37,043 nucleotides of DNA from an uncultured Clostridia bacterium (GTDB lineage Bacteria > Bacillota > Clostridia > Christensenellales > Borkfalkiaceae), in NCBI GenBank assembly GCA_947624805.1, contig CANQLW010000010.1, forward strand, positions 1 through 37,043, given 5' to 3'. The translations under genes and the position numbers were made by a program. Below the pieces are notes generated by a model. That model ran no database searches, was not told where the DNA came from, and was given only the letters and a program-made list of their open reading frames with translations. Shown piece by piece: positions 17,741 through 37,043 of the stretch; positions within the stretch are counted from its first letter, which is position 1; every line of letters begins with the position of its first letter.

Positions 17741-17845
17741 TTTTTCCTCCTTAATTCCGGCGGATCCTCCCGCGCCCGCGCGCGTAACAAAAAGAAATGC
17801 CGCTGGGACGGGCATGAAAAGATCGATCCGTTGAATTTTGTCTCT

Positions 17846-20819: not shown

Positions 20820-20936
20820 TGACCGCCCCGCCCGCACGTATTTGGTGGACTAAGGGCGACACAAGCCCGCAGGGCGAAGTAACGCGAGATTCCACTCGCG
20901 TGAGACAGTGGCGAGCGGAGCGAGCCAAAGGGGTTA

Positions 20937-20993
20937 AACCCCTCAGTCACTCACTGCGTTCGTGCCAGCTCCCCCAAGAGGGGCGCCAAGGGG
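20937..20993 (+). repeat. REP-like repeat, plus-strand copy
   Basis: This is the inverted partner of 12152-12205, with the same CCTCAGTC...GCCAGCTCCCC...GGGGCGCCAAGGGG order and a different loop. Confidence 0.7.
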
Positions 20994-20998
20994 TAGCG

Positions 20999-21087
20999 CG
21001 TCATCCTGAACGAATGTGAAGGATCCCGAGGATTGAAATTCGGACTCCGTTCTTCGGGATCCTTCGGGCTTCGCCCTCAGGATGACG
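20999..21087. repeat. Long inverted repeat (GTCATCCTGA family)
   Basis: Outer arms CGTCATCCTGA (20999-21009) and TCAGGATGACG (21077-21087) enclose inner arms AAGGATCCCGA (21019-21029) and TCGGGATCCTT (21054-21064). It looks like two head-to-head copies of one short repeat. The remaining DNA to 21214 shows no gene. Confidence 0.75.
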
Positions 21088-21214
21088 CGGAGGAGAACGC
21101 GGGGCAGGATGACTCTGGGAGGCAGGGGGCATGACGCGAGGGGGGAATGTGTCCCTCATAATGACCTATATGGCGGAAAAGGGCAACAAATTCAAAACAA
21201 TTTGCTAAAAGTTC

Positions 21215-21243
21215 TTGACTTTATAGAGCAACAATGATAATAT
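21215..21243 (+). promoter_or_regulatory. Promoter of surface paralog 1
   Basis: TTGACT (21215-21220) and TAATAT (21238-21243) are spaced by 17 nt. It is a weaker match than the promoters of paralogs 2 and 3, but its distance to the leader hairpins is the same. Confidence 0.7.
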
Positions 21244-21249
21244 ATAACC

Positions 21250-21378
21250 GAAGACCGTGCGGGATCCTGCCCCCCATGGGGGGCAGTTTGCCATGAAATG
21301 GCAAACTGTAATGACTCTACCGGGCGCGTGGACCACGGCGGACAAATAAATCAAAGAAATTGTAGTACAGGAGGATGT
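21250..21378 (+). promoter_or_regulatory. Structured 5' leader of surface paralog 1
   Basis: Hairpin 1 is the palindrome CTGCCCCCCATGGGGGGCAG (21267-21286). Hairpin 2 (21284-21308) has an 11-bp stem with a GAA loop and shares CAG with hairpin 1. The 3' part differs from the other two leaders. Here CTGTA (21306-21310) and CTAC (21317-21320) can pair with GTAG (21362-21365) and TACAG (21366-21370), which touches the AGGAGG at 21369-21374. Confidence 0.6.
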
Positions 21379-24300
21379 ATGAAAATTTTGAAGAAACACG
21401 GTTTGACGTTTGTCTTGCTTGCAGCGCTTGTCGTGACGTTTACGCTCGGCATAGTGTTTGCGCTGCCCGCAAAGACCGTCAGCGCCGCGGATGATGTCGA
21501 ATACGGTGAACCCGTGTACGTATCGTCCGAGAAAGAACTGAAAGATACAGTCGCGAACGCCGGGGAGATCCCCACAAAGATCATTCTTGATGGCAATATC
21601 GAGATGAACTCGATTACGAGCAAGGTAAACAAAAAGTTTTATGAGCTTACCATCAATAGGAAGCAGGTGATCGAACTTGATCTTGCGGGGCATATTCTTT
21701 CCTTGAGTCCGGCAAGCATATCTACCAGAGGTGTCATCCAAAATTATGGAACGCTTTCTATTGTCGACTCTTCCGGTGATTACAGCGGCGCAGTTGTTTC
21801 GAATGGGTATATCCATTCGGAAGATGACGGAGTTTATTGGGACGCGTCAAGAAGTGTAATTGACAATTATGGCGCCTTGACATTAAACGCAAACATTCGG
21901 ATGGGTTGTCCTGCCCCTACTGCGTCAGGAACGGATGGTTATTTTAATCGTATTTGTGATATCGCCCAATCTGCTCTTGATTCCCATTTGATTCGTAACC
22001 TGATGGAGCCGCCTATGGGAAGCGATCCGGATCAAACGTTCTATGTCGCTTCCGTTACAATCAATGGTGGCAATTTTGACCTGGATTATTCTTCTGCCTT
22101 AACAAACAAGTTTCCTTATGTGATGAATCACTTCATCTTGATTAGGGATGCTCAATTGACGATCAATGGCGGCACGTTCCGCAATTCTCAAACACATTGT
22201 TATGAGGGAGTGCGTCCGTGGAATCCCGGGTTCTTGGTTGATTTGGGGTATCTCTCCAATCGCTATGGCGATGTAAATAACAAAAAACTTTTAGAGGATG
22301 GCTACCGTCATGTTAATATCAACATCACGGGCGGTGATTTCGCTGATAAAAATTTGTTGACCCGTTTTGAAGATGAAAATGCTCTGCTATATCTCGCTGA
22401 ATATAATAAGTCAGAATATGGTGATACCTTTTCGGTCTCCATTTCGGGCGGCACATTCCCCATGGACCTTTCCGTCTATACAGACGCACAACATATGATG
22501 ATCGAGGAGGAACTCAGTAAGGATAATAAGCAGTACATTGTTGTTCCTGTCGATGACAACTTTATCAATGGATATGCCGTAGCAAAGTTAGAGTTGGACG
22601 GCGAAACGCCTACGTTGAACGGGTACTATGGTTCTTTTGAGGGTGCATGGAGCGCCGCGCAGACTCGTGCGGCGATGGGGCAGAGCACTACCATTCAACT
22701 GCTGAAAAATATTGAGACAAAGATTTTGTTCCTCAACGGGGTCGATAAGGATGTTTCAATGACAATTGACTTGAACGGGAAAGAAATGAAAATCTCGGTA
22801 GATGGACAGAATGCTGCTGCCGATAACGCATTTATATGTGCGGACAACAGCACGAGCAAGCCCGGGGTCACGACGCTTGTCGTCTGTGATACAACGGAAG
22901 AACAGAACGGCGCGATCAATTTTGTTTATCCGCAAAAATATGATAAATACGGCAGCATTTACATTACGCAACACATGAAATTCGTTCTTGAAAGCGGCAC
23001 ACTGAAGAGAACGGGGGGCGGCTTTAATGCAGTGAAAGGCTCGAATGAACATAAAAAGTCGATATTCTACCTTGTTAAAGGTTCGTATTATCAATCTGCC
23101 GTGACGATCAAGGGCGGGAATATTTTAAGTATGCTGAGCGGTGGTGACCAAGGGCACTTGATTTCCCACGGAGATGACAGTGGCCATAATGATGATGAAT
23201 GGTATAATCTGGCCAATTACACGGGAGATATCAATATCGCATTTGCCGACGATTTGTCAAGTAAAAGCGGCAGGGGGTATCGTTTCTCCTGGAACCTCAG
23301 CCCGATTCTTCCCGAAGGCGTCACGGGTACCACGACGAGTGACGGTTCCTTTGTCGTAACATACACGCAGGAAAACGAAAACTACATGGTAGGCACAACG
23401 GCATATTCAACGTTGGCCGACGCGATTGCAGCCGCTCAGGCGGGTGAAAACCATACTGTCGTTCTTCTTCGCGACAGAACCGAAGAGGGGGATGTTGAGC
23501 TTCCCGACGGGATCAAGCTCGATCTCAACCAATACCTCAACTACACATTCGCCGCGACGAAGCTCAGCCTCAACACAGGCTCCGCCGTCATGAACGGTAC
23601 CGTTCAGGCAAATATCGTCGTCAAGGGAGCGGTCACCTTCTCCGCGCTCACCGTAAAGGGTGACATCACCGTTGAGGAGAGCGGCAAGCTGGTCATCGGC
23701 GACGGCACCTACGACGGAACACTCTCCGCGGCTCAGGGCGGCAAGCTCTCGCTCATCGGCGGGAAATATCTTGCAACGGGCGAGTCGTATATCCCCTATA
23801 TTCAGGCGGGATTCGGCGCGGCGTCCGAGAACGGCGGGTACAGGACCGTAAAGGCGGGCATCGCGAGCGACGCTGCGCTGGCATGGTATGAAAGCAAGGG
23901 AGCTACAGAGGCGGGGATCCAGACGGCCGCCGTGGGCGATACCTACTATATCAATAATGAGAACGATTTCCTCTATTTCACATCGATCGTCAACAGCGGG
24001 AAAGATACCTTCGGCGACGACACGATCATCCTGAACAGCGATCTCAACTTTGGCGATTACACCTTCCTTCCCGCGGGCGCCGGCAGTCATGCCTTTAACG
24101 GGACGATCGATGGGAACAATAAGACGATGTCCAACATTGTCATGAAGGAATTCTTTGCCGGGATCATCGGCGAAAGCGGCAGCGCCTGCACCGTGAACGA
24201 TCTCACGATCAAAGATTCCACATTCACGGCAGGAAGCGGATATCTCGACGATCTTATGACCGATTCCTCTTGGCTTGCGGCGGGCTCTGTCGTCGGCAGC

Positions 24301-26226
24301 GGCTTCCTGAAGAACAGTAGCGGGATCACGATCGACGGATGCTCGATCGGGACGGAGGCGGGATATACCTTTATCGGTGGTCTCATCGGGCATACGTATT
24401 CCAGTGTTCAGTCGGATAATCTCACCGTGACAGACACTTCCGTCCGTTCGTCATGGAAGAGCGGCGGCGTTGTCGGCTATGTCGAAGGAGAACTGACTTT
24501 GAAAGAGGCGGATATCAAAGGCTTAGGATTTGAAGGCGAAGGTTTCTTCCCGTCGGGCGTCCTTGCGGGCGATCTGAACGGCGGAAAGGCGGAAGTCACA
24601 AACGCGACGATCGATTGTCCCGACGTTCCCCTGAACGGCGTGAGCAGTTCCAAGGCAGATGTCAAAGTCGATGGGCCCAAGACGGATATCCACGTCGAAA
24701 GCCTCGGCAATGCGGGCAGTTTCAATTTCACCCTTGACAAAAATGAAGAGACGGGCGATTCCGCCCAGCTTCAGGTCGGCAGTTCGCTTCCCGAGAATGT
24801 GACCATTAAGGATTCGGAAGGCAATGAGGTCAAGCAAGAACCCAACCCCGACGGCGACGGCGTCATCATGCAGGCATCGCCCAAGAATGTGGAGCTTTTC
24901 TACGGTCACGGCGAGATCCGCGGCAGCTATGATACCTTGCAGGCCGCGATCGACGCAGCGGAGGAGGGCGAGCGTATCTATCTCAAAGCAGATCTGGCCG
25001 AAGCATCGGTCACGGTCGGCACGGACAAAGTTGTCACGATCAATCTCTACGGCCACACCCTCACGGGGAATATCACGGTCGAGGGCGCGCTCATCCTTGA
25101 AAACGGCACCGTGAAGGGTTCGATCACGGTAAGCGGCGGCACGCTCACCCTTGCCGTTCCCGCGCTCGGCGAGGACGAGACGGCGATCAAGGAACTCACG
25201 ATCACGGCTACGGAAGGCAAGGCGATCGACGGTACCTACACCGTTGAGAAAAACGGCAATCAGGTCTGTGTGCAGGACGGGGAGACCGAGGTCAAGCTCA
25301 CCGGCGAGCACGCGTTCACAAAATATGTAGGCGAGGGCAACCGGATCCTTCTCGTCTGTGAATTTGACGATGAACCCTCCGGTCAGGCGATCACCGTCAC
25401 GACGGAGAAAACTGCTTATCCTTACATCGGCACGGCTTATACAGACCTTGCGGTCGTGACAAGCAATATTGCAGGGTTCGATCTCAAGGACGTCATCGTG
25501 AGCTATCTCTACAGTGCGACCGCGGAAGGCGCCTTTGCCGTGGCAGATTCCGTGCTGAAGGTCGGCTTCTACCGTGCACAGATCGAATACAATGACGTGA
25601 CCGCGTTTGCGACGTTCTCGATCAGCAAGACGTCGGCGACGATTTCCGGCATCACCGCGATCACCCAATACACGGGCGATAAGGTGTATGAAGGCGAGGC
25701 GGCGGGGGCTGTTGTCACCCTCGCAAACGGCACGACGATGTCGGCGGCGGAGATCGGGCTCACAGTCATCATCAGGGCGGAGCTCAGCGATTACAGCGTC
25801 GGCAAGCAGTTCGCAAAGATCGTGTCGATCAGCGTCGCGGGCGATGCCTTGACGGAATTTGAACTCGCTCCCGTCGGCAACCAGCTCTTCGCAGAGGTCG
25901 ACGTCACCCCGACGACGCTCACCGTCCGAGTCAATGGTGACGGCAGCGTGAGCTATGTCGGCTTCGTGGGCGGGGAAGATGAGAGCGTGCTCGGCGGCAA
26001 TCTGAAACTGGACTACACCGACAACGGCGACGGAACATCGACCGTGACCCCGAGCGGACTCGAGAGCAATAACTATCGTATCGTCTATGAAGTCGGCGTT
26101 GTCCGGAATAGCGTTTTGGGCAATGGAAACAACACGCTTTGGATCGTGCTCGCCGTGCTCGGAGCCGTGGCTGCGGCCGTCGGCATGGTTGCAGTCGTCT
26201 ACGCGGTCCGCCGTAAGAAAGACTAA
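21379..26226 (+). CDS. Giant surface protein, paralog 1: beta-helix/GLUG-like body with C-terminal membrane anchor
   Basis: This adhesin-like protein of 1615 aa has no assignable enzyme activity. A signal peptide (cleavage likely after VSA36) is followed by a beta-helix-like region with repeated GG-turn rungs (INGGNF, INGGTF, ITGGDF, ISGGTF) and the EMNSIT, LDLAGH and NYGTLSI motifs shared by all three paralogs. Around residues 905-1065 lie GLUG-like motifs (AGIIGES, GGLIGHT, GGVVGY, GVLAGDL). Next comes a second helix-like part (about 1150-1300), an MBG/YDG-like Ig domain (about 1415-1510), a conserved terminal block (about 1508-1578, SVSYVGFVGGEDESVLGG), and a membrane segment (about 1587-1609) with basic tail RRKKD. 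There is no LPXTG. The ATG at 21379 follows AGGAGG. Residues of about 110-670 are encoded by visibly lower-GC DNA than the rest. A role in adhesion or glycan contact is inferred from architecture. Confidence 0.88.
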   Translation: MKILKKHGLTFVLLAALVVTFTLGIVFALPAKTVSAADDVEYGEPVYVSSEKELKDTVANAGEIPTKIILDGNIEMNSITSKVNKKFYELTINRKQVIELDLAGHILSLSPASISTRGVIQNYGTLSIVDSSGDYSGAVVSNGYIHSEDDGVYWDASRSVIDNYGALTLNANIRMGCPAPTASGTDGYFNRICDIAQSALDSHLIRNLMEPPMGSDPDQTFYVASVTINGGNFDLDYSSALTNKFPYVMNHFILIRDAQLTINGGTFRNSQTHCYEGVRPWNPGFLVDLGYLSNRYGDVNNKKLLEDGYRHVNINITGGDFADKNLLTRFEDENALLYLAEYNKSEYGDTFSVSISGGTFPMDLSVYTDAQHMMIEEELSKDNKQYIVVPVDDNFINGYAVAKLELDGETPTLNGYYGSFEGAWSAAQTRAAMGQSTTIQLLKNIETKILFLNGVDKDVSMTIDLNGKEMKISVDGQNAAADNAFICADNSTSKPGVTTLVVCDTTEEQNGAINFVYPQKYDKYGSIYITQHMKFVLESGTLKRTGGGFNAVKGSNEHKKSIFYLVKGSYYQSAVTIKGGNILSMLSGGDQGHLISHGDDSGHNDDEWYNLANYTGDINIAFADDLSSKSGRGYRFSWNLSPILPEGVTGTTTSDGSFVVTYTQENENYMVGTTAYSTLADAIAAAQAGENHTVVLLRDRTEEGDVELPDGIKLDLNQYLNYTFAATKLSLNTGSAVMNGTVQANIVVKGAVTFSALTVKGDITVEESGKLVIGDGTYDGTLSAAQGGKLSLIGGKYLATGESYIPYIQAGFGAASENGGYRTVKAGIASDAALAWYESKGATEAGIQTAAVGDTYYINNENDFLYFTSIVNSGKDTFGDDTIILNSDLNFGDYTFLPAGAGSHAFNGTIDGNNKTMSNIVMKEFFAGIIGESGSACTVNDLTIKDSTFTAGSGYLDDLMTDSSWLAAGSVVGSGFLKNSSGITIDGCSIGTEAGYTFIGGLIGHTYSSVQSDNLTVTDTSVRSSWKSGGVVGYVEGELTLKEADIKGLGFEGEGFFPSGVLAGDLNGGKAEVTNATIDCPDVPLNGVSSSKADVKVDGPKTDIHVESLGNAGSFNFTLDKNEETGDSAQLQVGSSLPENVTIKDSEGNEVKQEPNPDGDGVIMQASPKNVELFYGHGEIRGSYDTLQAAIDAAEEGERIYLKADLAEASVTVGTDKVVTINLYGHTLTGNITVEGALILENGTVKGSITVSGGTLTLAVPALGEDETAIKELTITATEGKAIDGTYTVEKNGNQVCVQDGETEVKLTGEHAFTKYVGEGNRILLVCEFDDEPSGQAITVTTEKTAYPYIGTAYTDLAVVTSNIAGFDLKDVIVSYLYSATAEGAFAVADSVLKVGFYRAQIEYNDVTAFATFSISKTSATISGITAITQYTGDKVYEGEAAGAVVTLANGTTMSAAEIGLTVIIRAELSDYSVGKQFAKIVSISVAGDALTEFELAPVGNQLFAEVDVTPTTLTVRVNGDGSVSYVGFVGGEDESVLGGNLKLDYTDNGDGTSTVTPSGLESNNYRIVYEVGVVRNSVLGNGNNTLWIVLAVLGAVAAAVGMVAVVYAVRRKKD

Positions 26227-26239
26227 ATAAAATTCCTGT

Positions 26240-26267
26240 AAAGACCGCCGATTTTTCGGCGGTCTTT
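26240..26267 (+). terminator. Terminator after paralog 1
   Basis: A perfect 12-bp stem (26240-26251 with 26256-26267) has a TTTT loop. The same stem sequence with a different loop follows paralog 2. Confidence 0.88.
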
Positions 26268-26316
26268 ATAAAATGGGGGAAATCTTGTTTTTTCGAACAA
26301 AAATTCACCGAAATCC

Positions 26317-26345
26317 TTGACATTTTCTGACCGTAATGTTATGAT
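26317..26345 (+). promoter_or_regulatory. Promoter of surface paralog 2
   Basis: TTGACA (26317-26322) and TATGAT (26340-26345) are spaced by 17 nt; the predicted start is near 26352. Confidence 0.88.
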
Positions 26346-26351
26346 AAAACA

Positions 26352-26480
26352 AAACCGAGACACCCTCCTGCCCCCATGGGGGCAGTTTGCCATGAAATGG
26401 CAAACTGTAAAATCCCTACCGAGCGGGTATGTAGTCACGGTTTCAAGCATACTGAAAAGGGATTTTATTTAGGAGGATGT
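26352..26480 (+). promoter_or_regulatory. Structured 5' leader of surface paralog 2
   Basis: Hairpin 1 is CTGCCCCCATGGGGGCAG (26368-26385). Hairpin 2 (26383-26407, 11-bp stem, GAA loop) shares CAG with it. A perfect 10-bp stem TAAAATCCCT/AGGGATTTTA (26408-26417 and 26458-26467) encloses 40 nt in which ACCG/CGGT (26418-26421, 26438-26441) and GTATG/CATAC (26427-26431, 26448-26452) interleave, as in a pseudoknot or two alternative folds. AGGAGG (26471-26476) follows three nucleotides after the stem. Confidence 0.7.
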
Positions 26481-29400
26481 ATGAAAATATTGAGAAAACA
26501 CGGCCTGACGTTTGTCCTGCTTGCGGCGCTCATCGTGACCTTCGCGCTCGGCGTTGTATTCATGATGCCCGCAAAAACCGTCAGCGCGGATGAGGAGTTC
26601 GTTCCCCAAAACACAGTAACGGTTACGAGCGAGCAGGCCCTGAAAAAAGCCGTCGCGGACGCAGCCGATACGCCCACGAAGATCATACTCGGCGGGAATA
26701 TCGAGATGAACTCGGTCACAAGCGGCGCAGAAGGGACGAAATATTACGAATTGATCGTGGATAGGGGACAGCGCATTCAGCTCGACCTCGCGGGCCACAC
26801 GCTTTCGGTGATTCTCAATCCCACGAGCAAATACGTAATCGTGAACTACGGCACGCTCTCTATCATCGACTCCTCAGGGAATTACAGCGGGAAAGTCGTG
26901 TCGAACGGCTACATTGTAAAGCAAACTTCCGGCGACGATTGGAGTGTTGAAAATCCGGGCTATATTTGGCGTCCCGCGTCTGTTATTTATAGTTATGGCG
27001 ACCTGACGATCAATGCCAATATCGGTTTGGAAACGCCCGAGAGCAAGGGCGCACCCGGAGAAGACGGTTATTACAACGGCACACACCCGGAACACACAAG
27101 TATGATCATCAGCAGCCTTTATGTTCCCGATGCCGATGACCCCGATCAGACGATCTCCAATTCTTCCGTAACGGTCGAGGGCGGTACCTTCAGCGGTAAA
27201 TATATGTACGTGTTCCAATTGGAGGACGCGGATTTAACGATCAAAGACGGTACATTTACGACGCTTGCCTCTACGGGGTACATGAAAGAAACATATCTTT
27301 TTGCTACTGCGCCTTATGCTCCGGAGCCGAGCTATTGGCCGAGAGGTTATGAAGACGAGGATTATAACTTCACTTTATATCCGGGTGAAGCAGAAAAAGT
27401 CGAACAAACATTAAAGGAGCATTCAGATTTAATCGATAGGCTCACACCGTATCATCACAGCACGATCGAAATCATAGACGGAGATTTTACCGCATACACC
27501 GGGGACAGCAGCTGTTTCGAAATCGAGACTGAGGTCAATAAGTGCATAGAGATTGATCGTGAGCTCTGGGATTGGAAGAGAGAAAAGGTCGGAGAGGCGA
27601 CGTTCAGTTTTGCCTTAACGGGCGGCAGATGGGGGAGAGATCTCTCTGACTACGTTCCCGACGGGTATTGGATGGAACTTTTTCAGGAAACAACGCAAGA
27701 CGGTGACATCCTTAGCAAATATTATCAGGTAGGCCGCATCGATGAGAACAGAGCGGGGGCTCTTTTAGAGGTGAATGACGAGAAGCATTATTATTCTACT
27801 TTTGCCTCTGCCCTTTTGGCCGCAAAGACTGTGCAGGCGGAGACCCGCACGATTACGCTTTTATCGGATAATCAAATCGGCCAAATCGGACTCACGGACC
27901 TTAAGGGAGAGTTGCGGCTCGACCTGAACGGATATAAGCTCACGGTGGAACCGACGAATACGTATCATATTATCGGAGGCAACGGCGCCGCGTATAAAAA
28001 TACCTTTATCATTTGCGATGGGAGCGCTCAGCAGGAAGGCGAATTGATCTTGTCCGTTAAGAGCGGAAACGCGATTTCGAATGGCTCATTTATTCAAGTG
28101 AGCCAAAACACGAAATTTATCCTCGAAAGTGGGACGATTCGTCAAACGGGATATGTCCCCGCAACGTATTATGATGCCGAAGCTGCCTCTTACAAACGTA
28201 ATGTGAATCTGCTGTCCTTGTTCAAACTGAAGGATAAAGTTCAAATCACCAATTCAAATGTAAATACCTACGCGGACTGTGTTCAGATCAAGGGCGGGAA
28301 TATTCTCTCCGATCTGACATTCGGAACGGCGGACAACATCGTCGGTCGCCGCACGGGTGAACTGTTCGCTTGGTGGGATGGTAAATCTTACGCGTATCCT
28401 GATTATGAATGCGGTTTGGGCGACGGCGCCGTTTCTGCCGCAAATAAAAAAACAATCTTTGTTGTCGATCTGAAAGATTACCTTGCAGACGGCACCACAG
28501 CGTGCAGATTCGCTTGGGACTTCAACGATATTGTCTCCTCCGACGGTATGTCGAGCAGCTCCGACGGCAACGGCAACTATATTGTAACACTCGTCAGTGA
28601 AGAAGAGTATTTCATCGTCGGCACAAAAAAGGTCGCCACTTTGCAGGCAGCCCTTCAGGAGGCAAAGGAAAACGCTACGATCTCCGTTCTCAAAGACGCA
28701 ACCGTCTCGGGCGATGTTGAGATCGGAAACGGCATTACGCTCAATCTCAATTCTGTCGTGAATTTTAAGGTGACGTTCGAAGGTAAATTAACGCTCAAAG
28801 ACGGCGCTTCGATCAAGAACGGCACGATCATATGTAACGACATCACGCTTGACGGAGATGTGACGCTGGAAGATGTGACCGTCACGGGCAAGGACGACGT
28901 TGCTTCGGCCGTCACGGTGCAAGGCGGCACGGTCACCATCCCGAGCGGCAAATATAACTGTGATTTCACGGTCGGCGGCGGTACGCTCGATATCACGGGC
29001 GGCTTCTTCCGCGGCGATCAGATCGATGCGCTTGATCAATATTTCGGGGAATTCCTCGGCGGATATATCGCGGCGGGAGAAGCGTATCAACAGAACGAGC
29101 TTTACGAAGTGAAGTTCGCCCCCGATCTCGACGCGCAGGAATGGTATAAGAAATACAAGAATAACGCGGACAAGACGTTCCTGATCGGCAAGCCCGAAGA
29201 ATGGGGCTACTTTGCGCTCTATGTCAACAGCGGAGTTGACAGTTTTCAGGGAAAAATTGTAAAAATCAGCGCGAATCTTGATTTTGCCTCGGGCACTGCA
29301 AGCGGCATCGCTCTTGCCGCCGAAGCGAATGAGCCGAATTTCATGCCTGCAGGCAACAAGGCCCATTCCTTCTTTGGTACGATCGACGGAGATTATCATG

Positions 29401-31547
29401 TGATCAGCGGGATCGTCGCGCGGGAAAAGTATGTCGGCTTGATCGGTTATTCGGCATATAATTCGTCCGAAAACTCGCTACAGGTAAATAATTTAACCGT
29501 CAAAGATTCCGTCTTCACGGTGGGGAACGGTTTCCTCGATGCGTTTAATGTTGTGAATGCGACCAGCGAATTCTTGGCAGGCGGCGCAATTATCGGTTTT
29601 AGCCATTTCGGAGTCAAACAAGCGAACATCACACTCGATCATGTTACCGTCGATTGCGATACTGAGAATCTTGGTGCCCACAGAACTTACAGCGGCGCAA
29701 TCATCGGGCATACGTTTGGAGGTGTCTCGGTTGAAAATCTGGAGATGACGGGTTCTACCGTAATGGGCAACTGGAAAACGGGCGGCGTGGTCGGCTTTAA
29801 TGAGAGCGGAAGTATCGCCCTGAAAGAGGCCCATATCAGCGATGTCACAATCGACGGGAGCAGTAGTGCCGGCGTGGTGGCAGGACATACGCAGGGCTCG
29901 AACGTAACCCTTGAAAACTGTACGGTGGAGACGCCCGATCAGTCCTTGATCGGCTCCGCAAGTGTCAGAAAAGGGACGCAGGAGATCAAAATTACGGGAC
30001 CCAAGACGGACATCCATGTCGAGTCGCTCGGGCAACTCGATAATAAAAACGCAAATCAAACGGTTGCAATCGAACTTTCGACGGATGGAGAGGGCAACGC
30101 TTCGCAGGTGCAGTTTTCCTCGGGCGCGACGCTTCCCCCCAACCTGACCGTCACCAACAACGGCGATGAGGTAGATCTCAGCGGCGGTCTCAAGACCGAC
30201 CCCGAGAACGGCAGCTTCATCTTTGAAGCGGATCCTAAGCCCGTTGACCTTTACACCGATGAAGCGAACGAATCGGTCCATCAGGGGAGCTACTCGACCT
30301 TGACAGAGGCGCTTGCAAAGGCATCCAAGGGCGACAGAATTTACGTCAACGGAGATATCAAAGAAGACATCACGATCGCCGCGGATCAGGAAGTCATCAT
30401 CAACCTTCTTGGGAATACCCTCACGGGAAATATCACGATTCAGGCAAACGGAATGCTCACGCTGGAATACGGCACCGTGGCGGGTTCGATCACAAATAAC
30501 GGCACGCTCAAACTTGTGGTTCCCGCGCTCGGAGAGGGCGAGACGGCGATCAAAGAACTCAAGATCACGGCGGAAGGCAAGGCGATCGACGGCGAATATA
30601 CCGTTGAGACGAACGGCAATGAGGTCTGCGTCCGCGTAAGTGACAGCGAGATCTATCTTACGAAGGATCACGAGGCGGGCGCCTACACCGCCGCGGGCGA
30701 CACGATCACGATCCGTTGCCTGCATGATGACACTGTTCTCGGCACGGTGAGGATTGTCGCTCCTGCGAATGCAACGTTCAGCAATGAAAAAATCGAGGCG
30801 ACGGTTGAGATCGATCCCGAAGGATTTATCGAAGCTCCCGAGATCACCTACACGGACGCCGAGGGCAACCCTGTCGAGGAGATCCTCTCTGCGGGCAAGT
30901 ACACGGCAAGCATTAAGCTCGGCGATGTGACTGCAAGTGTCACGTTCGTGGTGAAACAGCAGGAACTCACCATCACCGATATCGAGGGTACGATCAGCTA
31001 TCAGGGCGATACGGCGCTCACGATCGATGTGGAGAGCTATACACTTAAAGACCTCAACGGGACAGTTGTCGAGCTCGAGAATATCACCGTGACGGTGACC
31101 CTCGAGAAGTCGAAGTACAGTGTCGGGAATGACCAGTACGCCCTCATCACAGAGATCCATATGAGCGGCAATGACAATTATGCACTCAGCACGGTCGGCA
31201 ACCAGCTCTATATGAAACTCGATGTCACCCCGACGACGCTCACCGTCAGAGTGAATAATGACGGCAGCGTGAGCTATGTCGGCTTTGTGGGCGGGGAAGA
31301 TGAGAGCGTGCTCGGCGGCAGTCTGAAGCTGGACTACACCGACAACGGCGACGGAACATCGACAGTGACCCCGAGCGGACTCGAGAGCATCAACTATCAC
31401 ATTGTCTATGAGGCAGGTATCGTCTCGAACAATGTCGCGGGCGGAGAGAATAACGCCCTTTGGATCGTGCTCGGCGTGCTCGGAGCCGTGGCTGTAGCAG
31501 CCGTTGCAACAGTGATCGTCTGCGAGGTACGCCGTAAGAGGAACTAA
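26481..31547 (+). CDS. Giant surface protein, paralog 2
   Basis: This is the longest of the three paralogs (1688 aa) and has the same plan. A signal peptide (cleavage likely after VSA36) comes first. A beta-helix-like N-terminal half follows, with EMNSVT, LDLAGHTLSV and NYGTLSI, but with its own variable region (rungs VEGGTF, IKDGTF, IDGDF, TGGRWG). GLUG-like motifs lie at about residues 965-1130 (VGLIGYS, GAIIGHT, GGVVGF, GVVAGHT). Then come the IHVESLG block, a second helix-like part, an Ig-like domain from about residue 1440 (VEIDPEGFIEAPEITYTDAEG, given in two pieces as VEIDPEGFIEA and PEITYTDAEG), an MBG-like domain and the conserved terminal block. The last part is a membrane anchor (about 1660-1682) with tail RRKRN. 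There is no sortase motif. The ATG at 26481 follows AGGAGG. The first ~105 codons and last ~250 codons are nearly identical in DNA to paralog 3. Confidence 0.88.
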   Translation: MKILRKHGLTFVLLAALIVTFALGVVFMMPAKTVSADEEFVPQNTVTVTSEQALKKAVADAADTPTKIILGGNIEMNSVTSGAEGTKYYELIVDRGQRIQLDLAGHTLSVILNPTSKYVIVNYGTLSIIDSSGNYSGKVVSNGYIVKQTSGDDWSVENPGYIWRPASVIYSYGDLTINANIGLETPESKGAPGEDGYYNGTHPEHTSMIISSLYVPDADDPDQTISNSSVTVEGGTFSGKYMYVFQLEDADLTIKDGTFTTLASTGYMKETYLFATAPYAPEPSYWPRGYEDEDYNFTLYPGEAEKVEQTLKEHSDLIDRLTPYHHSTIEIIDGDFTAYTGDSSCFEIETEVNKCIEIDRELWDWKREKVGEATFSFALTGGRWGRDLSDYVPDGYWMELFQETTQDGDILSKYYQVGRIDENRAGALLEVNDEKHYYSTFASALLAAKTVQAETRTITLLSDNQIGQIGLTDLKGELRLDLNGYKLTVEPTNTYHIIGGNGAAYKNTFIICDGSAQQEGELILSVKSGNAISNGSFIQVSQNTKFILESGTIRQTGYVPATYYDAEAASYKRNVNLLSLFKLKDKVQITNSNVNTYADCVQIKGGNILSDLTFGTADNIVGRRTGELFAWWDGKSYAYPDYECGLGDGAVSAANKKTIFVVDLKDYLADGTTACRFAWDFNDIVSSDGMSSSSDGNGNYIVTLVSEEEYFIVGTKKVATLQAALQEAKENATISVLKDATVSGDVEIGNGITLNLNSVVNFKVTFEGKLTLKDGASIKNGTIICNDITLDGDVTLEDVTVTGKDDVASAVTVQGGTVTIPSGKYNCDFTVGGGTLDITGGFFRGDQIDALDQYFGEFLGGYIAAGEAYQQNELYEVKFAPDLDAQEWYKKYKNNADKTFLIGKPEEWGYFALYVNSGVDSFQGKIVKISANLDFASGTASGIALAAEANEPNFMPAGNKAHSFFGTIDGDYHVISGIVAREKYVGLIGYSAYNSSENSLQVNNLTVKDSVFTVGNGFLDAFNVVNATSEFLAGGAIIGFSHFGVKQANITLDHVTVDCDTENLGAHRTYSGAIIGHTFGGVSVENLEMTGSTVMGNWKTGGVVGFNESGSIALKEAHISDVTIDGSSSAGVVAGHTQGSNVTLENCTVETPDQSLIGSASVRKGTQEIKITGPKTDIHVESLGQLDNKNANQTVAIELSTDGEGNASQVQFSSGATLPPNLTVTNNGDEVDLSGGLKTDPENGSFIFEADPKPVDLYTDEANESVHQGSYSTLTEALAKASKGDRIYVNGDIKEDITIAADQEVIINLLGNTLTGNITIQANGMLTLEYGTVAGSITNNGTLKLVVPALGEGETAIKELKITAEGKAIDGEYTVETNGNEVCVRVSDSEIYLTKDHEAGAYTAAGDTITIRCLHDDTVLGTVRIVAPANATFSNEKIEATVEIDPEGFIEAPEITYTDAEGNPVEEILSAGKYTASIKLGDVTASVTFVVKQQELTITDIEGTISYQGDTALTIDVESYTLKDLNGTVVELENITVTVTLEKSKYSVGNDQYALITEIHMSGNDNYALSTVGNQLYMKLDVTPTTLTVRVNNDGSVSYVGFVGGEDESVLGGSLKLDYTDNGDGTSTVTPSGLESINYHIVYEAGIVSNNVAGGENNALWIVLGVLGAVAVAAVATVIVCEVRRKRN

Positions 31548-31562
31548 ATCAAAATCACCTGT

Positions 31563-31590
31563 AAAGACCGCCGAACACTCGGCGGTCTTT
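31563..31590 (+). terminator. Terminator after paralog 2
   Basis: A perfect 12-bp stem (31563-31574 with 31579-31590) has an ACAC loop; the arms are identical to those of the terminator at 26240-26267. Confidence 0.88.
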
Positions 31591-31639
31591 ATAAATGTGC
31601 ACTTTTTCTACATTTTTCCAATAGATTTGAAGCAAACCC

Positions 31640-31668
31640 TTGACATTTTCTAATCGTAATGCTATGAT
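31640..31668 (+). promoter_or_regulatory. Promoter of surface paralog 3
   Basis: TTGACA (31640-31645) and TATGAT (31663-31668) are spaced by 17 nt. It is almost identical to the paralog 2 promoter. Confidence 0.88.
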
Positions 31669-31674
31669 AAAACA

Positions 31675-31803
31675 AAACCGAGACACCCTCCTGCCCCCAT
31701 GGGGGCAGTTTGCCATGAAATGGCAAACTGTAAAATCCCTACCGAGCAGGTATGTAGTCCCGGTTTCAAGCATACTGAAAAGGGATTTTATTTAGGAGGA
31801 AGT
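31675..31803 (+). promoter_or_regulatory. Structured 5' leader of surface paralog 3
   Basis: It has the same layout as the paralog 2 leader: hairpin 1 at 31691-31708, hairpin 2 at 31706-31730, the 10-bp stem at 31731-31740 and 31781-31790, interleaved ACCG/CGGT (31741-31744, 31761-31764) and GTATG/CATAC (31750-31754, 31771-31775), and AGGAGG at 31794-31799. Very few bases differ from copy 2 and those seen fall outside the stems. Confidence 0.7.
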
Positions 31804-34800
31804 ATGAAAGTATTGAAAAAGTATGGCCTGACGTTTGTCCTGCTTGCGGCGCTCATCGTGACCTTCGCGCTCGGCGTTGTATTTATGATGCCCGCAAAAA
31901 CTGTCAGCGCGGATGAGGAGTTCGTTCCCCAAAACACAGTAACGGTTACGAGCGAGCAGACTCTGAAAAAAGCCGTCGCGGACGCAGCCGATACGCCCAC
32001 GAAGATCATACTCGGCGAGAATATCGAGATGAACTCGATCACAAGCGGCGGCGAGGGCACCAAATATTATGAATTGATCGTGGAGAGGGGACAGAGCATT
32101 CAGCTCGACCTCGCGGGCTTTGAACTCTCTGTTCCTGTACGGAAAAATACTGAAGGTTGTGTTATTGAGAATCACGGCACGCTCTCTATCATCGACTCTG
32201 AGAATTATCAGGGAGCGGTCGTGTCGAATGGTTATATATCCCTTAACGCCGGGAAAATGACTTGGCTTTCGGCGGACGTCATTCAGAATCATGGCGAATT
32301 GACGGTGGATGCCAATCTTCGCATTCAATGTCCCGAAAGTACAGCAGAGGGGACGGATGGATATTATGAAACCACGGGCAACTTTAACTACGCCTTTTTC
32401 GTTGAAAGCAGTCTTTATATTCCCACGCTGTCCGATGTCGATAGAACTTATCAAAAGGCCTCCACTGTTATCAATGGCGGTAACTTTGACTTAAATTGTG
32501 GTCCTCAAGTCATACCCCACTTTTTCAGTATCGCAGAAGCGGATTTGACGGTCAACGGCGGTTCATTCAAAAATACTTCTTCTACCCGTCCGGGCCAAGA
32601 TGGTTTCTTGGCGACTTTGCGGAGCATCGATTTTAGGGAAAGTCCATATACGAATCACAATGTGTATGGTGATCTGAATAATGCGGCCATCAAGAATTTC
32701 CGTCATGTGCATATCACAGTTACAGGCGGCGATTTCAAGGACAAGAATTTGATTCAAGGCGAAAATAAAGGCGCTTTGCTGTATATATTCGACTTCTATG
32801 GTAGCAATAAATCAACCGCTTTGCGAATTGACGGCGAAGAGTACACGGTCGCAGTCACGGGTGGCACATTCCCGTTGGATCTTTCCGGGTATCTCGACGT
32901 GGATCATGCCATGCTCGAAGAAAAAGTTACGCAGGACGGGGTAGAGACGGGTGAGGTCTCTTACACCGTAGTAGGAGCAGATAAACAGGGCGCCGTTGCC
33001 ATTTTGAAGCAGGGCGATGAGATCAAAGGATATTATTCCTCTTTTACTTCCGCCTGGAATGCCGCGATGACTCAGACGACCGACAGGACGATCGTTCTCC
33101 AAAAGGATGCAACGGTAATCGACCAAACACTTCTTATTAAAGGGAGAGATGTCAATACAACGCTGGATCTGAACGGACACACATTGACGGTTACTCCGCC
33201 TGTAACTCCTAACGGATGGGACTATCATTTCAAAAACGATGAGACACACCCGCCTTTTTACGGAATTTTTACCGTGAAGGATTCGAACCGAGATGGCGGC
33301 GGTGAGTTGATTTTGAATTATCCGGACAAGTCAACGAAAGGTGGCTTCCATATCAACGGCGGATATCAGTTTGTTCTCGAAAGCGGTACCATTCGCGTGA
33401 CAGGAGTGAAACCCAGTACCCGTAACCAATATAATGCATTATTCCAGTTTGATGTGAGTAGCAAAAAACAGAAAGCGGACTCTGTGATCATCAAGGGCGG
33501 CAATATCGTATCTGACTGGGGAACTGAAGGCATTTATTTTGGAGCATGGGCATACGGTTCGTCAAGCTGGTCTTATAGCTTAGACAAAAATAACGAAGAC
33601 TGGAAACCCGACACGGGATATGAAACTCCCAGCAAGTACGAATCTTTGAGATTCGACATCGACGACTATCTGGCCGCTCACAATACCATGAAATTCTCGT
33701 GGGATCTGACGGCATTCCTGCCCGATGGAATGACGTGCACCCCCGGTGAGAGCGGATATGTCATTACAAATGTTCAGACGGGAGATAACTATTTCGCCAA
33801 CGAAACAAAATTCGCCGAGCTCTCTGATGCGATCCAGGCCGCGCAGTCGGCTCCGTCCAACAAGACCGTCACCCTTCTCCGCGATATGACGGAAACGGGC
33901 GATGTGGAGATCCCCGAGGGGATCACGCTGGACCTCAACCCTTATCTGCACTTCACATTCGGGGCGGAGAATGTCATCCTCAATGAGAACACCGCCCTCA
34001 AAAACGGTACCGTGAATGCGAATGTCACCGTCAAGGGCAAGACGGAATTTTTGAAGCTCACCGTCAAGAAAGATCTTACCGTTGCGGAGGGCGGCGATCT
34101 TACGATCAAGGACGGCACCTACGACGGCGCCCTCAACGTAAACGGCGGCACGCTCCTCCTCATGGGCGGCAAGTTTGCAGATGGCGGCACGGACGACGCG
34201 AAACTGAAGGGATATGACCAATATATCCAGCCCGGTTTCGGCGCATCGGGCGTGGAAAACGGTTACAGAACCGTGAGAGGCGGCCTTGCAAGCCTCGCGG
34301 CGTTGCAACAATGGTATGCAACGGGCGTGAAACCCGCGGCGGCGGAAGCGGGCACAGCATTTACGATCAAAGACACGACCGAATGGCTCTACTTCACGTC
34401 TATCGTCAACAGCGGTACCGACAATTTTGCAAATTGCACGGTGACCCTCGTCTATGACCTCGACTTCAGGGATTCTATCTTTATCCCCGCAGGTACGGCA
34501 GGACATGATTTTGCGGGTACTTTGATCGGAAACAACAAAACGATTTCGAATGCCCATGCCAAAGAGCACTATGCAGGGGTCTTCGGCGTCGGCGCCAATA
34601 CCTTCACAGTTACAGACCTCAATGTTGTGAGCTCCTCCTTTGTCTCGGGCCCCGGGTATCTCGACGATGTATCTGTCGATTGGGGCTGGGGCGCAGCGGG
34701 CGCTATCGTCGGCGCAGGCTTTATCGGAAAGGACAGCAGCGGACTGAAGATCTCGGGCACTGAGATCAATACAGAGTACGGCTATGTCTATCTCGGCGGC

Positions 34801-36582
34801 ATTATCGGGCATACGTTCGGGGGCGTCACGCTGAAGGATATTACTCTTGAGAATGTCTCCGTCGAGCAGAAGTGGAAGAGCGGCGGTATCGTCGGTCAGG
34901 TCGATTACGGTCTGTATCTTGAAAATCTGACCGTAACGGGGCTGGAATTTACGGGGACCATGGGCGGCTGGTGCCCGAGCGGCGTTCTCGCGGGCGATCT
35001 CAACAGCGCGACATCGACGGTTACGAATGCGAAAATCGATTGCCCCGAAATCCCCTTGACGGGTTCGAGCAGTCATTCTGTTGCGATCACGGTCGACGGT
35101 GCCGAGACGGATATCCATGTCGGCAGCCTCGGCGATGCGGGCAGCTTTGAGATCGTTCTCGAACAGGACGAGGCAAGTTCTGCACAGGTTCAGGTCGGCA
35201 GTTCGCTTCCCTCCAATGTAACGATCAAGGACAAGGAAGGTAATACGGTCGAGCAGGAACCCAACCCCGACGGCAACGGCTTCATCATGCAGGCGGATTC
35301 CAAGGCGGTAGAGGTGTTCTACGGCGAAGGGGAGATCCTCGACAGCTTTGACACATTGCAGGATGCGATCAACGCGGCGGGCGAGAACAACCGTATTTAT
35401 CTTAAAAAACCTTTGACCGAATCTGTCACGGTCGGTGCAGAGAAAAAGATCACGATCAACCTCTACAAGAATACCTTGACGGGTACGATCGCGGTCGAAG
35501 GCGCTCTCATCCTTGAAAACGGCAAGGTGGTGGGCTCGGTCGCAAACGGCGGCACGCTCACGCTTGCAACGGGTGAAATCGGCCTTATCATCGAAAACAC
35601 CGAGGCGGTCGTCACGGGGAATGACTATACCGTGGACGGAACTCCCTGCATCCGTGAGACGGTGGACGGGGAAGTCGTGACGAGGCTCGAACTTGCCCTT
35701 ACCCATGATTATACCAAGTACACGGCGGTCGGGAATGTCATCACCGTCTCGTGCGTGCACGACGGCGTGGTGGAGGGAACGGTCACCCTGAAGGCGCCCG
35801 AGGCTCCGAAGTTCGGCGACGAAGCGATCGGGGCGACGGTTGAGATCGATCCCGAGGGATTTATCGAAGCTCCCGAGATCACCTACACGGACGCCGAGGG
35901 ACACGAGGTTAAAACGATCACCGAGGCAGGCAAGTACACGGCAAGCATTAAGCTCGGAGATGTGACTGCAAGCGTCACGTTCGTGGTGAAACAGCAGGAA
36001 CTCACCATCACCGATATCGAGGGTACGATCAGCTATCAGGGCGATACGGCGCTCACGATCGATGTAGAGAGCTATGTCCTCAAAGACCTCAACGGGATAG
36101 TTGTCGAGCTCAAGGATATCACCGTGACGGTGACCCTCGAGAAGTCGAAGTACAGCGTCGGGAATGATCAGTACGCACTCATCACAGAGATCCATATGAG
36201 CGGGAATGACAATTATGCACTCAGCACGGTCGGCAACCAGCTCTATATGAAACTCGACGTCACCCAGACGACGCTCACTGTCCGTGTCAACAACGACGGC
36301 AGCGTGAGCTATGTCGGATTCGTCGGCGGGGAAGATGAGAGCGTGCTCGGCGGAAGTCTGAAACTCGACTATACCGACAACGGCGACGGGACATCGACCG
36401 TGACCCCGAGCGGACTCGAGAGCATCAACTATCATATTGTCTATGAGGCAGGTATCGTCTCGAACAATGTCGCGGGCAATGAAAACAACACGCTTTGGAT
36501 CGTGCTCGCCGTGCTCGGAGCTGTGGCTGTAGTAGCCGTTGCCACAGTGATCGTCTGTGAGGTACGGCGTAAGAGGAACTAA
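31804..36582 (+). CDS. Giant surface protein, paralog 3 (mosaic of paralogs 1 and 2)
   Basis: This 1592-aa member has the same architecture: a signal peptide to VSA36, a beta-helix-like region with INGGNF, VNGGSF, VTGGDF and VTGGTF rungs, GLUG-like motifs at about residues 905-1060 (AGVFGVG, GGIIGHT, GGIVGQ, GVLAGDL), a second helix-like part, Ig-like and MBG-like domains from about 1344, the conserved terminal block, a membrane anchor and tail RRKRN. Residues 1 to about 105 follow paralog 2. From there to about 1290 the protein follows paralog 1 (for example GYLDD, PSGVLAGDLN, VGSSLP, QEPNPDG). From 1344 onward it again follows paralog 2, apart from NTLWIVLAVLGAV in the anchor, which is like paralog 1. 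It lacks the VPALGE...TAIKEL stretch that both others have. The ATG at 31804 follows AGGAGG. Regulation probably matches paralog 2. Confidence 0.88.
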   Translation: MKVLKKYGLTFVLLAALIVTFALGVVFMMPAKTVSADEEFVPQNTVTVTSEQTLKKAVADAADTPTKIILGENIEMNSITSGGEGTKYYELIVERGQSIQLDLAGFELSVPVRKNTEGCVIENHGTLSIIDSENYQGAVVSNGYISLNAGKMTWLSADVIQNHGELTVDANLRIQCPESTAEGTDGYYETTGNFNYAFFVESSLYIPTLSDVDRTYQKASTVINGGNFDLNCGPQVIPHFFSIAEADLTVNGGSFKNTSSTRPGQDGFLATLRSIDFRESPYTNHNVYGDLNNAAIKNFRHVHITVTGGDFKDKNLIQGENKGALLYIFDFYGSNKSTALRIDGEEYTVAVTGGTFPLDLSGYLDVDHAMLEEKVTQDGVETGEVSYTVVGADKQGAVAILKQGDEIKGYYSSFTSAWNAAMTQTTDRTIVLQKDATVIDQTLLIKGRDVNTTLDLNGHTLTVTPPVTPNGWDYHFKNDETHPPFYGIFTVKDSNRDGGGELILNYPDKSTKGGFHINGGYQFVLESGTIRVTGVKPSTRNQYNALFQFDVSSKKQKADSVIIKGGNIVSDWGTEGIYFGAWAYGSSSWSYSLDKNNEDWKPDTGYETPSKYESLRFDIDDYLAAHNTMKFSWDLTAFLPDGMTCTPGESGYVITNVQTGDNYFANETKFAELSDAIQAAQSAPSNKTVTLLRDMTETGDVEIPEGITLDLNPYLHFTFGAENVILNENTALKNGTVNANVTVKGKTEFLKLTVKKDLTVAEGGDLTIKDGTYDGALNVNGGTLLLMGGKFADGGTDDAKLKGYDQYIQPGFGASGVENGYRTVRGGLASLAALQQWYATGVKPAAAEAGTAFTIKDTTEWLYFTSIVNSGTDNFANCTVTLVYDLDFRDSIFIPAGTAGHDFAGTLIGNNKTISNAHAKEHYAGVFGVGANTFTVTDLNVVSSSFVSGPGYLDDVSVDWGWGAAGAIVGAGFIGKDSSGLKISGTEINTEYGYVYLGGIIGHTFGGVTLKDITLENVSVEQKWKSGGIVGQVDYGLYLENLTVTGLEFTGTMGGWCPSGVLAGDLNSATSTVTNAKIDCPEIPLTGSSSHSVAITVDGAETDIHVGSLGDAGSFEIVLEQDEASSAQVQVGSSLPSNVTIKDKEGNTVEQEPNPDGNGFIMQADSKAVEVFYGEGEILDSFDTLQDAINAAGENNRIYLKKPLTESVTVGAEKKITINLYKNTLTGTIAVEGALILENGKVVGSVANGGTLTLATGEIGLIIENTEAVVTGNDYTVDGTPCIRETVDGEVVTRLELALTHDYTKYTAVGNVITVSCVHDGVVEGTVTLKAPEAPKFGDEAIGATVEIDPEGFIEAPEITYTDAEGHEVKTITEAGKYTASIKLGDVTASVTFVVKQQELTITDIEGTISYQGDTALTIDVESYVLKDLNGIVVELKDITVTVTLEKSKYSVGNDQYALITEIHMSGNDNYALSTVGNQLYMKLDVTQTTLTVRVNNDGSVSYVGFVGGEDESVLGGSLKLDYTDNGDGTSTVTPSGLESINYHIVYEAGIVSNNVAGNENNTLWIVLAVLGAVAVVAVATVIVCEVRRKRN

Positions 36583-36596
36583 ATCAAAATCCCGAC

Positions 36597-36626
36597 AGCC
36601 CGAGGAGCGCCGCTCCTCGGGCTTTT
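36597..36626 (+). terminator. Terminator after paralog 3
   Basis: An 11-bp G/C-rich stem (36597-36607 with 36613-36623) has a CGCCG loop and ends in TTTT. It is unrelated to the stems after paralogs 1 and 2. Confidence 0.9.
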
Positions 36627-36654: not shown

Positions 36655-36879
36655 TTTCGAACGATTTCTTTGCTCCGCCCCGCGAATGCGCGACGTAGAC
36701 GCGCCCCCTCGCGTCATTCTGAGAGAGTGGGACGTACGTAGTCCGAAGAGTAATTCCCGAAGAATCACGCGGGGCTACGCAAATAAATACGTTCGAGGAA
36801 TGTCGCCCTCTGGGATATTACGTTGCGGCTCGACATCGCTCTCCCCGACATTAAGCCGAAAGGGTTCGGCAAATTGGGT
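36655..36879 (+). repeat. Dispersed non-coding repeat, copy B
   Basis: This is the plus-strand partner of the element at 6970-7152. The shared blocks are 36655-36684 (30 bp), a GTCATTCTGAG core near 36713-36723, about 36759-36800, and 36847-36879. The middle spacers have different lengths and sequences. No coding potential was recognised between 36627 and the window end. Confidence 0.85.
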
Positions 36880-36934
36880 CGCCCACGGCGGAAGTGAATT
36901 CCGCCTAAGGCACATTATTTGGGAACATTGCCCA

Positions 36935-37026: not shown

Positions 37027-37043
37027 TTTACCCCCACCTGACG

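Follow-up and report, generated by a model that had tools for sequence, protein, structure and literature searches.

We analysed a 37,043-nucleotide (nt) stretch of DNA from an uncultured Clostridia bacterium (the window; GenBank contig CANQLW010000010.1), which corresponds to contig C10 in a 93%-complete draft genome (1.72 Mb in 112 contigs). Three complete giant open reading frames (ORFs) stand in tandem on the forward strand between positions 21298 and 36582 (ORF limits 21298-26226, 26376-31547 and 31699-36582), confirming the surface-protein array proposed in an earlier reading of the sequence alone (the sequence-only reading). Upstream of every gene come a promoter-like sequence of its own, a structured leader and a Shine-Dalgarno (SD) sequence, AGGAGG; all three products start with a signal peptide. 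The likely starts, judged from sequence, are the ATG codons after AGGAGG at 21379, 26481 and 31804, giving proteins of 1592-1688 amino acids (aa). We prefer them to the mechanical ORF starts, which lie inside the leader, because the frame that is open ahead of these ATGs is that structured leader. Here we describe the mosaic evolution of this array and the family of leader elements to which its leaders belong (Table 1).

Table 1. Features of the three-gene array, in positions of the window
Feature	Position	Strand	Basis or match
Gene 1 promoter-like sequence, TTGACT ... TAATAT, approximate	21215-21243	+	read from sequence
Gene 1 leader element, stem 1: palindrome CTGCCCCCC/GGGGGGCAG	21267-21286	+	model R1 match 21258-21332
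Gene 1 leader hairpin 2: AGTTTGCCAT gaa ATGGCAAACT; overlaps end of stem 1	21285-21307	+	
Gene 1, 1615-aa surface protein, likely start; SD AGGAGG 21369-21374	21379-26226	+	
Terminator-like hairpin 3' of gene 1 (I10)	26239-26268	+	
Gene 2 promoter-like sequence, TTGACA-17-TATGAT	26317-26345	+	read from sequence
Gene 2 copy of homogenised tract, promoter to codon ~105	26317-26795	+	
Gene 2 leader element, stem 1: palindrome CTGCCCCCATGGGGGCAG (I13)	26368-26385	+	R1 match 26359-26431
Gene 2 leader element, hairpin 2	26384-26406	+	
Gene 2 extra helix TAAAATCCC/GGGATTTTA and SD AGGAGG able to pair with upstream CCTCC	26408-26476	+	predicted
Gene 2, 1688-aa surface protein, likely start	26481-31547	+	
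Gene 2 copy of homogenised C-terminal block; 91% to gene 3 across 781 nt	30776-31547	+	
Terminator-like hairpin 3' of gene 2, arms as 3' of gene 1 (I11)	31562-31591	+	
Gene 3 promoter-like sequence, TTGACA-17-TATGAT	31640-31668	+	read from sequence
Gene 3 copy of homogenised tract, promoter to codon ~105	31640-32118	+	
Gene 3 leader element, stem 1 palindrome (I14)	31691-31708	+	
Gene 3 leader element, hairpin 2	31707-31729	+	
Gene 3 extra helix and SD, as in gene 2; SD predicted blocked	31731-31799	+	
Gene 3, 1592-aa surface protein, likely start	31804-36582	+	
Gene 3 predicted right-handed beta-helix, ~376 residues after signal peptide	31912-33039	+	AlphaFold2 model and structural comparison
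Gene 3 homogenised C-terminal block: MBG_2-like domain, hydrophobic C-terminal anchor	35811-36582	+	
Terminator-like hairpin after gene 3, differs from other two (I12)	36597-36623	+	

Identity among the three genes varies strongly along their length. A closest-pair heterogeneity test gave a chi-squared of 518.7, compared with a maximum of 86.1 in 2000 shuffles (2177 informative sites). At four-fold sites, genes 2 and 3 share an identity of 0.98 (50/51) over alignment columns 1-110, 0.62 at columns 110-200, 0.41-0.46 at 200-1450 (near saturation), 0.57 at 1450-1550, and 0.80-0.82 at 1550-1835. The near-identical ends and strongly different centres noted in the sequence-only reading are thus borne out. 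Gene 1 reaches only 0.56 against either gene 2 or gene 3 in the N-terminal part. Going downstream, genes 2 and 3 are 87% identical in the promoter, 98% in the leader and 94% over codons 1-105, after which identity is 57%; gene 3 does follow gene 2 for its first ~105 codons. That it then follows gene 1 for ~1200 codons was an overstatement, as gene 3 is nearest to gene 1 chiefly at alignment codons ~275-485 and ~827-1459, and the closest pair shifts elsewhere in the centre. An anchor segment resembling that of gene 1 was likewise claimed too strongly and depends on a few residues. Gene 1 comes about as near to gene 2 (0.89) and gene 3 (0.78) over the last 135 columns as those two do to each other, so the anchor region is similar in all three. 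The same terminator-like hairpin follows genes 1 and 2, with another after gene 3, as expected from tandem duplication of a unit. By these comparisons the locus is a true mosaic, in which genes 2 and 3 are homogenised from promoter to codon ~105, the C-termini are homogenised, and the centres are old.

Among 103 genomes of the genus, nine encode an array protein (E ≤ 1e-20); others occur in G250, from another genus, and G470, from another family. A comparison of copy number across genomes, proposed in the earlier reading, revealed variation from one to three copies per locus read. We compared 14 full-length proteins from seven genomes. Identities within and between genomes were 0.83 and 0.60 for the signal peptide and 0.85 and 0.57 for the C-terminus, with the centre at 0.35 and 0.36. 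The best central matches cross species (G000_2 with G052_2, 0.68; G250_3 with G470_1, 0.69; G033_1 with G250_2, 0.63; G033_2 with G031_1, 0.56). Segment trees (quick search, LG+G4, no mixture) placed the C-termini in by-genome groups for G000 (99/98), G033 (97/95) and G031 (100/100), with G250 and G052 intermixed. In the centre tree, all five within-genome clades tested were rejected by the approximately unbiased test (p-AU 8e-5 to 3e-54), and cross-species pairs appeared instead. A single consistent tree across segments, the outcome named beforehand as contrary to recombination, was not obtained; the heterogeneity test and the segment trees both support recombination between the genes.

Taken together, the comparisons show adhesin-like surface proteins, anchored in the membrane and encoded in tandem, whose ends evolve in concert and whose central types are shared. 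Recombination holds the signal peptide and C-terminal block alike within a genome. The central modules, in part a predicted beta-helix, are old and freely diverging, with types that recur in different species. Several observations weigh against this account. The spacer before the -35 box of genes 2 and 3 is only 41% alike, i.e. not homogenised, which suggests that selection on functional parts has some role. Between-genome maxima overlap the within-genome range for both the signal peptide (0.89) and the C-terminus (0.90, G052 with G250). Within-genome likeness of residues 37-100 is peculiar to genes 2 and 3 of this array (0.91), as is the homogenised tract to codon ~105; other within-genome values lie at 0.17-0.49, and in the other genomes (0.17-0.35) these residues are no closer within than between genomes. 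A rival account has old paralogues that never recombined, their ends held by strong purifying selection and their centres under relaxed selection. In its favour, the functional parts (promoter, signal peptide, anchor) do sit in the ends and the spacer is not homogenised. We regard such an origin as very improbable. It is contradicted by the four-fold sites, where genes 2 and 3 agree at 0.98 in the N-terminal part compared with 0.56 for gene 1 against either, and by the segment trees, in which the C-termini of three genomes cluster by genome and the centres across genomes.

In SecA, G250 and G470 share 55% identity and G033 and G250 65%, while G000 and three genus mates share 86-87%. The matching central modules of these genomes are closer than would be expected of a fast gene at such divergence, making transfer likely. 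Based on these sequence comparisons, some central modules have probably moved between genera and families. A misbinned contig in G470 is unlikely, as the GC content is 0.444 on both contigs and their tetranucleotide correlation is 0.87. The array contig of G250 (C7, locus L242) is nearer in composition to G000 and G033 (0.88 and 0.87) than to its own SecA contig (0.74), which may reflect recent transfer or misbinning, two causes that composition does not distinguish.

Few domains were recognised in the array proteins. An MBG_2-like domain near the C-terminus fell below the Pfam cut-off in all three, with a few weaker Pfam matches besides, and searches of NCBIfam (E ≤ 0.01) and of Protein Data Bank (PDB) sequences (E ≤ 0.1) returned no matches. 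For gene 3, AlphaFold2 predicted a right-handed beta-helix over the first ~376 residues past the signal peptide (model residues 1-376; mean predicted local distance difference test score, pLDDT, 69.5). Its structural neighbours include the L. reuteri serine-rich repeat protein (SRRP) adhesin and pectinases. The predicted fold is thus common to the SRRP binding regions of L. reuteri (PDB 5nxk, 5ny0) and to S. pneumoniae PfbA (4mr0, 3zpp). Unlike these proteins, with which they share only 10-14% sequence identity, the array proteins have a hydrophobic C-terminal anchor in place of an LPXTG motif. They also lack the serine-rich stretch of SRRP, as no 60-residue segment holds more than 10-12 Ser. 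Because pectinolytic enzymes and phage tailspikes do just as well in the structural comparison, adhesion is a proposed role.

The sequence-only reading had further proposed a surface-variation locus; for a switching locus of this kind we found no support. Recombining families of bacterial surface proteins include opa of Neisseria. In the available text on MgPa of Mycoplasma genitalium (PMC2169797), paralogues with conserved and diverged parts are likewise shaped by recombination. In contrast to both systems, every copy of the array has its own promoter-like sequence, leader and SD, donor cassettes were not seen, and variation is demonstrated between species by sequence comparison. No arrangement of an expression site with silent donor cassettes was found in the array or in its draft genome. 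Nor does this 93%-complete genome hold a further close copy of the array; a search returned just four matches, of 30-42% identity across 69-187 residues.

The leaders of the array are not private to it. Alignments across genomes show each to be a member of a conserved, covarying family built of a zero-loop palindrome (stem 1), an abutting hairpin (hairpin 2), an A-rich tail and the motif YUUAwyrG. We read 141 elements, and removal of four parser failures (L173, L218, L219, L222) and two duplicates left 135 distinct parsed elements. Stem 1 spans 10-18 bp and is a loopless palindrome in 133 of the 135, with a 1-nt centre in the other two; the parser permitted loops of 0-2 in this stem. Taking one element from each of 63 genomes gave 62 loopless palindromes and one 1-nt centre. 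The dropped row L222 and the identical L218 and L219 also contain a zero-loop palindrome, leaving L173, with a looped stem 1 (GCTCC-CCAA-GGAGC), as a true exception. Seven central words were observed: CATG (87), CGCG (23), CTAG (10), TATA (6), TGCA (3), CCGG (3) and GTAC (1). Stem 2 has 9-13 pairs and a loop of 3-7 nt, and its first base is the last base of stem 1 in 124 of 135 elements. The three bases at this shared junction mostly change together (A,T,A in 73; T,A,T in 28; G,C,G in 8; the other 15 mixed). Hairpin 2 is followed by 4-5 A and then the motif.

Sequence varies widely beneath this constant structure. The parsed elements contain 56 distinct stem-1 sequences and 80 distinct stem-2 arm sequences, with several stem-1 sequences inside one genome (e.g. 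G382, G361, G026). Two-sided variation was seen in only 2 of 15 pairs in a first, nearly invariant set. With 73 members, 72 of them from other genera, 99.0% of 1063 cells were paired, all 15 modelled pairs had two-sided changes and one-sided (U-G) changes numbered five. Covariation was 0.515, compared with 0.165 in shuffles. This alignment was fitted to the model and hence leans towards it; slid controls gave 5-22 two-sided cells against 195. Stem 2 of the elements contained 4 mismatches in 1383 pairs and no G-T, compared with 10 in 228 and four G-T for terminator-like hairpins from the same sequences, a control of only 23 hairpins. Stem 2 G-T pairs rose to 1/1392 under another scoring, or to 12/1404 where the scoring rewards G-T. 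To check how the palindrome had been ascertained, we searched 398 genomes with a pattern that described only hairpin 2, which matched 13 sites; a reversed control also matched, up to 15 times in some genomes. Eight of the 13 sites had a zero-loop palindrome flush alongside, all already known from the model, and the remaining five, lacking a palindrome of at least 5 pairs, look coding or like chance. An upstream ORF within the leader (ATGGGGGCA...TAA) was considered and rejected, as it requires a 3-nt loop and an ATG centre that are broken in other copies.

A 195-bp leader probe detected 14 sites in the draft genome. Eight of the 11 sites outside the array could be read into a gene, which in each case encodes a long lipoprotein; the eight share their N-terminus and differ in the remainder. 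At a ninth site (C47b), the gene begins in the same way before the contig ends. The likeness of the flanks noted in the sequence-only reading is largely that of a conserved element that also precedes unrelated genes. The eight lipoproteins (L023 to L028, L031 and L032) begin M(N/H)KTK(R/K)RS...SACGN. Their first ~400-1200 nt are mutually 70-96% alike and their remainders differ, which is also a constant-front, variable-back design. Contigs C44, C56 and C93 end inside the element. A site-specific recombination site was rejected, since repeated leaders explain contig ends at such positions. A mobile element was also unsupported, and two patterns searched against viral contigs found nothing.

To delimit the family, we used two covariance models, built from 27 sequences and then from 23 diverse members. 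With the first, 13 of the 103 genus genomes had a match (E ≤ 1e-3), two of which (G009 and G054) look like chance by eye; in the family, 32 of 251 genomes matched. The second (E ≤ 1e-3) found it in 83 of 398 family genomes, 77 of these in three genera (g1, g3, g8). Matches occurred in 9 of 297 genomes sampled from the order, five of them outside the family and only G470 strong among those, and in 9 of 291 sampled from the class, where the eight besides the genome of the window were all weak (E ≥ 5e-5). By eye, weak matches outside the family resemble terminators, coding stretches or operators; L148 and L248 carry what we take to be CsoR-type ATACCCC-GGGGTAT operators. The exception is L149 (G489, another family of the order, E 7e-4), a palindrome before an exported-looking ORF that may be a distant member. 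A pattern scan of 84,980 species genomes returned 17 stretches, all in metagenome-assembled genomes titled uncultured Clostridia bacterium isolate Lapin, titles that suggest a rabbit origin.

No Rfam 15 family reached its gathering threshold in the whole window or in nine element-bearing loci. In a permissive scan of two leaders, the best match was an animal long noncoding RNA at E 0.0087 (19.4 bits, with 70 needed). A description of the element was not found in the literature searched, including the available part of PMC11109978, with most subscription papers outside that search. We thus found the family undescribed and consider it more novel than the array.

The element is read on the strand of the next gene. 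Of the elements read, 137 have an ORF downstream and four more ran off contigs; the start codon follows hairpin 2 by a median of 53 nt, and by no more than 130 nt in 116 of the 137. Among 97 good promoter matches, 49 place the element 20-27 nt past the -10 box. Shuffled upstream sequences gave 62 good promoter matches on average, making individual promoters uncertain. An exported-type ORF (lipobox, signal peptide or N-terminal membrane segment, called by a simple hydrophobicity and lipobox rule, not a trained predictor) lies downstream of 120 of the 137 elements, compared with 43 of 107 background ORFs (Fisher 6e-15). The background was drawn from contigs around the element genes and includes some of these, so the contrast is conservative. 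Pfam assigned 39 families to 96 downstream products, including Listeria-Bacteroides repeats (10), xanthine/uracil-type permeases (6), solute-binding proteins (5 and 3), BspA-type repeats (3) and LytTR regulators (2). With covarying helices, a position in the 5' untranslated region (UTR) and the strand of the next gene, the element has the features generically expected of a structured cis-regulatory RNA, as judged from sequence.

Across 110 leaders, the SD is predicted to be unpaired at 0.59 on average, compared with 0.47 for shuffled leaders, and mostly paired (unpaired under 0.3) in 13, compared with 10 in the averaged control. This pattern counts against an SD switch as the general mode of action and favours a 5' structure that insulates or stabilises. 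The SDs of genes 2 and 3 are the most blocked of the 110 (predicted unpaired 0.02). The extra helix predicted to hide them is absent from gene 1, which hints at differing expression within the array. If the helix forms as modelled, translation of genes 2 and 3 is probably confined to some particular condition.

The explanation we favour, with roughly even confidence, joins an array in concerted evolution to a leader that serves as a 5' mRNA stabiliser and insulator. As a rigid double helix at the 5' end of the mRNA, the leader would shield the transcript from 5'-end-dependent decay and leave the SD free of upstream pairing. The result would be long-lived mRNAs for proteins made at the membrane. 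According to the accessible portions of two studies, B. subtilis mRNAs can gain stability from a hairpin at the 5' end or close to it (PMC3997798), and for mRNAs under translation at the cell periphery, decay is reportedly initiated by the membrane-bound RNase Y (PMC11313650). The step from these two findings to our leader, by analogy, and the functions in mRNA protection and SD clearance, from sequence patterns, are ones that we infer. A comparable case concerns Bacillus aprE, which encodes an exported protein. Its leader also has a hairpin near the mRNA 5' end that likely protects from 5'-dependent decay (PMC3997798, in the part available). The present element differs in its two abutting covarying stems, one a zero-loop palindrome, in its conserved tail and in serving many unrelated exported-protein genes. 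CIRCE, the operator and leader of chaperone genes, is an inverted repeat in the 5' UTR beside the promoter, able to act at both the DNA and RNA level. In CIRCE a single sequence is conserved and the spacer is fixed; element sequences and lengths, by comparison, vary widely while the structure is kept.

What the stabiliser and insulator view leaves unexplained is the loopless palindrome. A plain stabilising hairpin needs neither a palindrome running through its centre, as in 133 of 135 elements, nor so few G-U pairs. Such features would suit a role at the DNA level, with stem 1 as the site of a symmetric protein and the whole element a regulatory DNA site near the transcription start. The strict symmetry retained in stem 1 alone fits a DNA role for that stem: pairing within one RNA does not require a perfect through-centre palindrome, G-U is scarce in both stems, and the element sits directly after the promoter. 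We nonetheless judge it unlikely. Stem-1 sequences are too many, several to a genome, to offer a common sequence to read; the arms and loops of hairpin 2 vary in length, so half-sites lack the constant spacing that a dimeric operator would require; and the conserved tail is one-sided. No conserved half-site at fixed spacing emerged among the 56 stem-1 and 80 stem-2 arm sequences. The two central bases of a loopless palindrome cannot pair intramolecularly, so their constant complementarity asks for a two-molecule duplex, in the form of an RNA dimer or of the DNA itself, or for a mutational process. As an RNA dimer, the leader would represent a new 5'-UTR class in which mRNAs form homodimers through a 10-18-nt palindrome duplex beyond the reach of any single hairpin, with the abutting hairpin competing for the shared junction base. 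The central two bases are complementary in 133 of 135 copies despite seven different four-letter words. We consider this homodimer doubtful; if true, such a dimerisation switch would place a surface-protein regulon under joint control.

On the mutational view, template switching at inverted repeats would correct the arms and flip the loops, with selection just for some hairpin. This process yields compensatory changes and loop flips, according to the available text of PMC8794818, and would account for the two-sided changes with few G-U intermediates and for a GAA to TTC loop flip between the otherwise near-identical leaders C27 and C3. It could cause part of the covariation, which again counts against the stabiliser view. 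As a full explanation it is rather improbable, leaving aside the post-promoter position, the conserved tail, the gene context and the one-base-shared abutting stems (124/135). A ligand-responsive element is also unlikely in our estimation. Here, a riboswitch or regulator occluding the ribosome-binding site (RBS) would set the pairing of an anti-SD (AGCTCCT in lipoprotein leaders, CCTCC in genes 2 and 3) with the SD. Alternative pairings are predicted within the draft genome (AUGGGGG with CUCCUAU in some leaders, AGCUCCU with AGGAGCU in another), and the SDs of genes 2 and 3 are predicted to be blocked. Opposing this, SDs are freer on average than in shuffled leaders, with those mostly paired close in number to the control. 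The conserved part consists of two hairpins with variable loops, and no conserved unpaired pocket was seen beyond the A-rich tail and YUUAwyrG. A general RBS-occlusion switch was not supported, as the 110 leaders do not show an SD sequestered in one of two conserved conformations.

Intergenic inverted repeats lie on both sides of the array (~20900-21140 and ~36680-37043; e.g. CGCGTCATCCTGA...TCAGGATGACGCG), and similar stretches occur upstream of other element-bearing genes in the draft genome. Upstream of the array, positions 7669-12063 encode a 1464-aa lipoprotein-like ORF (...AAACGGGG) with no Pfam match at E ≤ 0.001. On the reverse strand, 14528-17815 encodes a GH3-type glycosidase in which Pfam places the domains in permuted order: GH3 C-terminal (90-377), Fn3-like (497-573), then GH3 N-terminal (777-956).

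The array is a clear natural example of how ends can be kept homogeneous around beta-helix modules that diverge freely and probably face the host, with centre types that recur across genera. The geometry of the leader element, with its through-centre palindrome, shared base and few G-U pairs, is odd for an RNA and poses the question of whether it is a hairpin, a dimer, a DNA site or a mutational by-product. If our reading is right, dozens of uncultured Clostridia species tie many exported and surface proteins to one undescribed leader, which would be a candidate handle on surface control in these bacteria.

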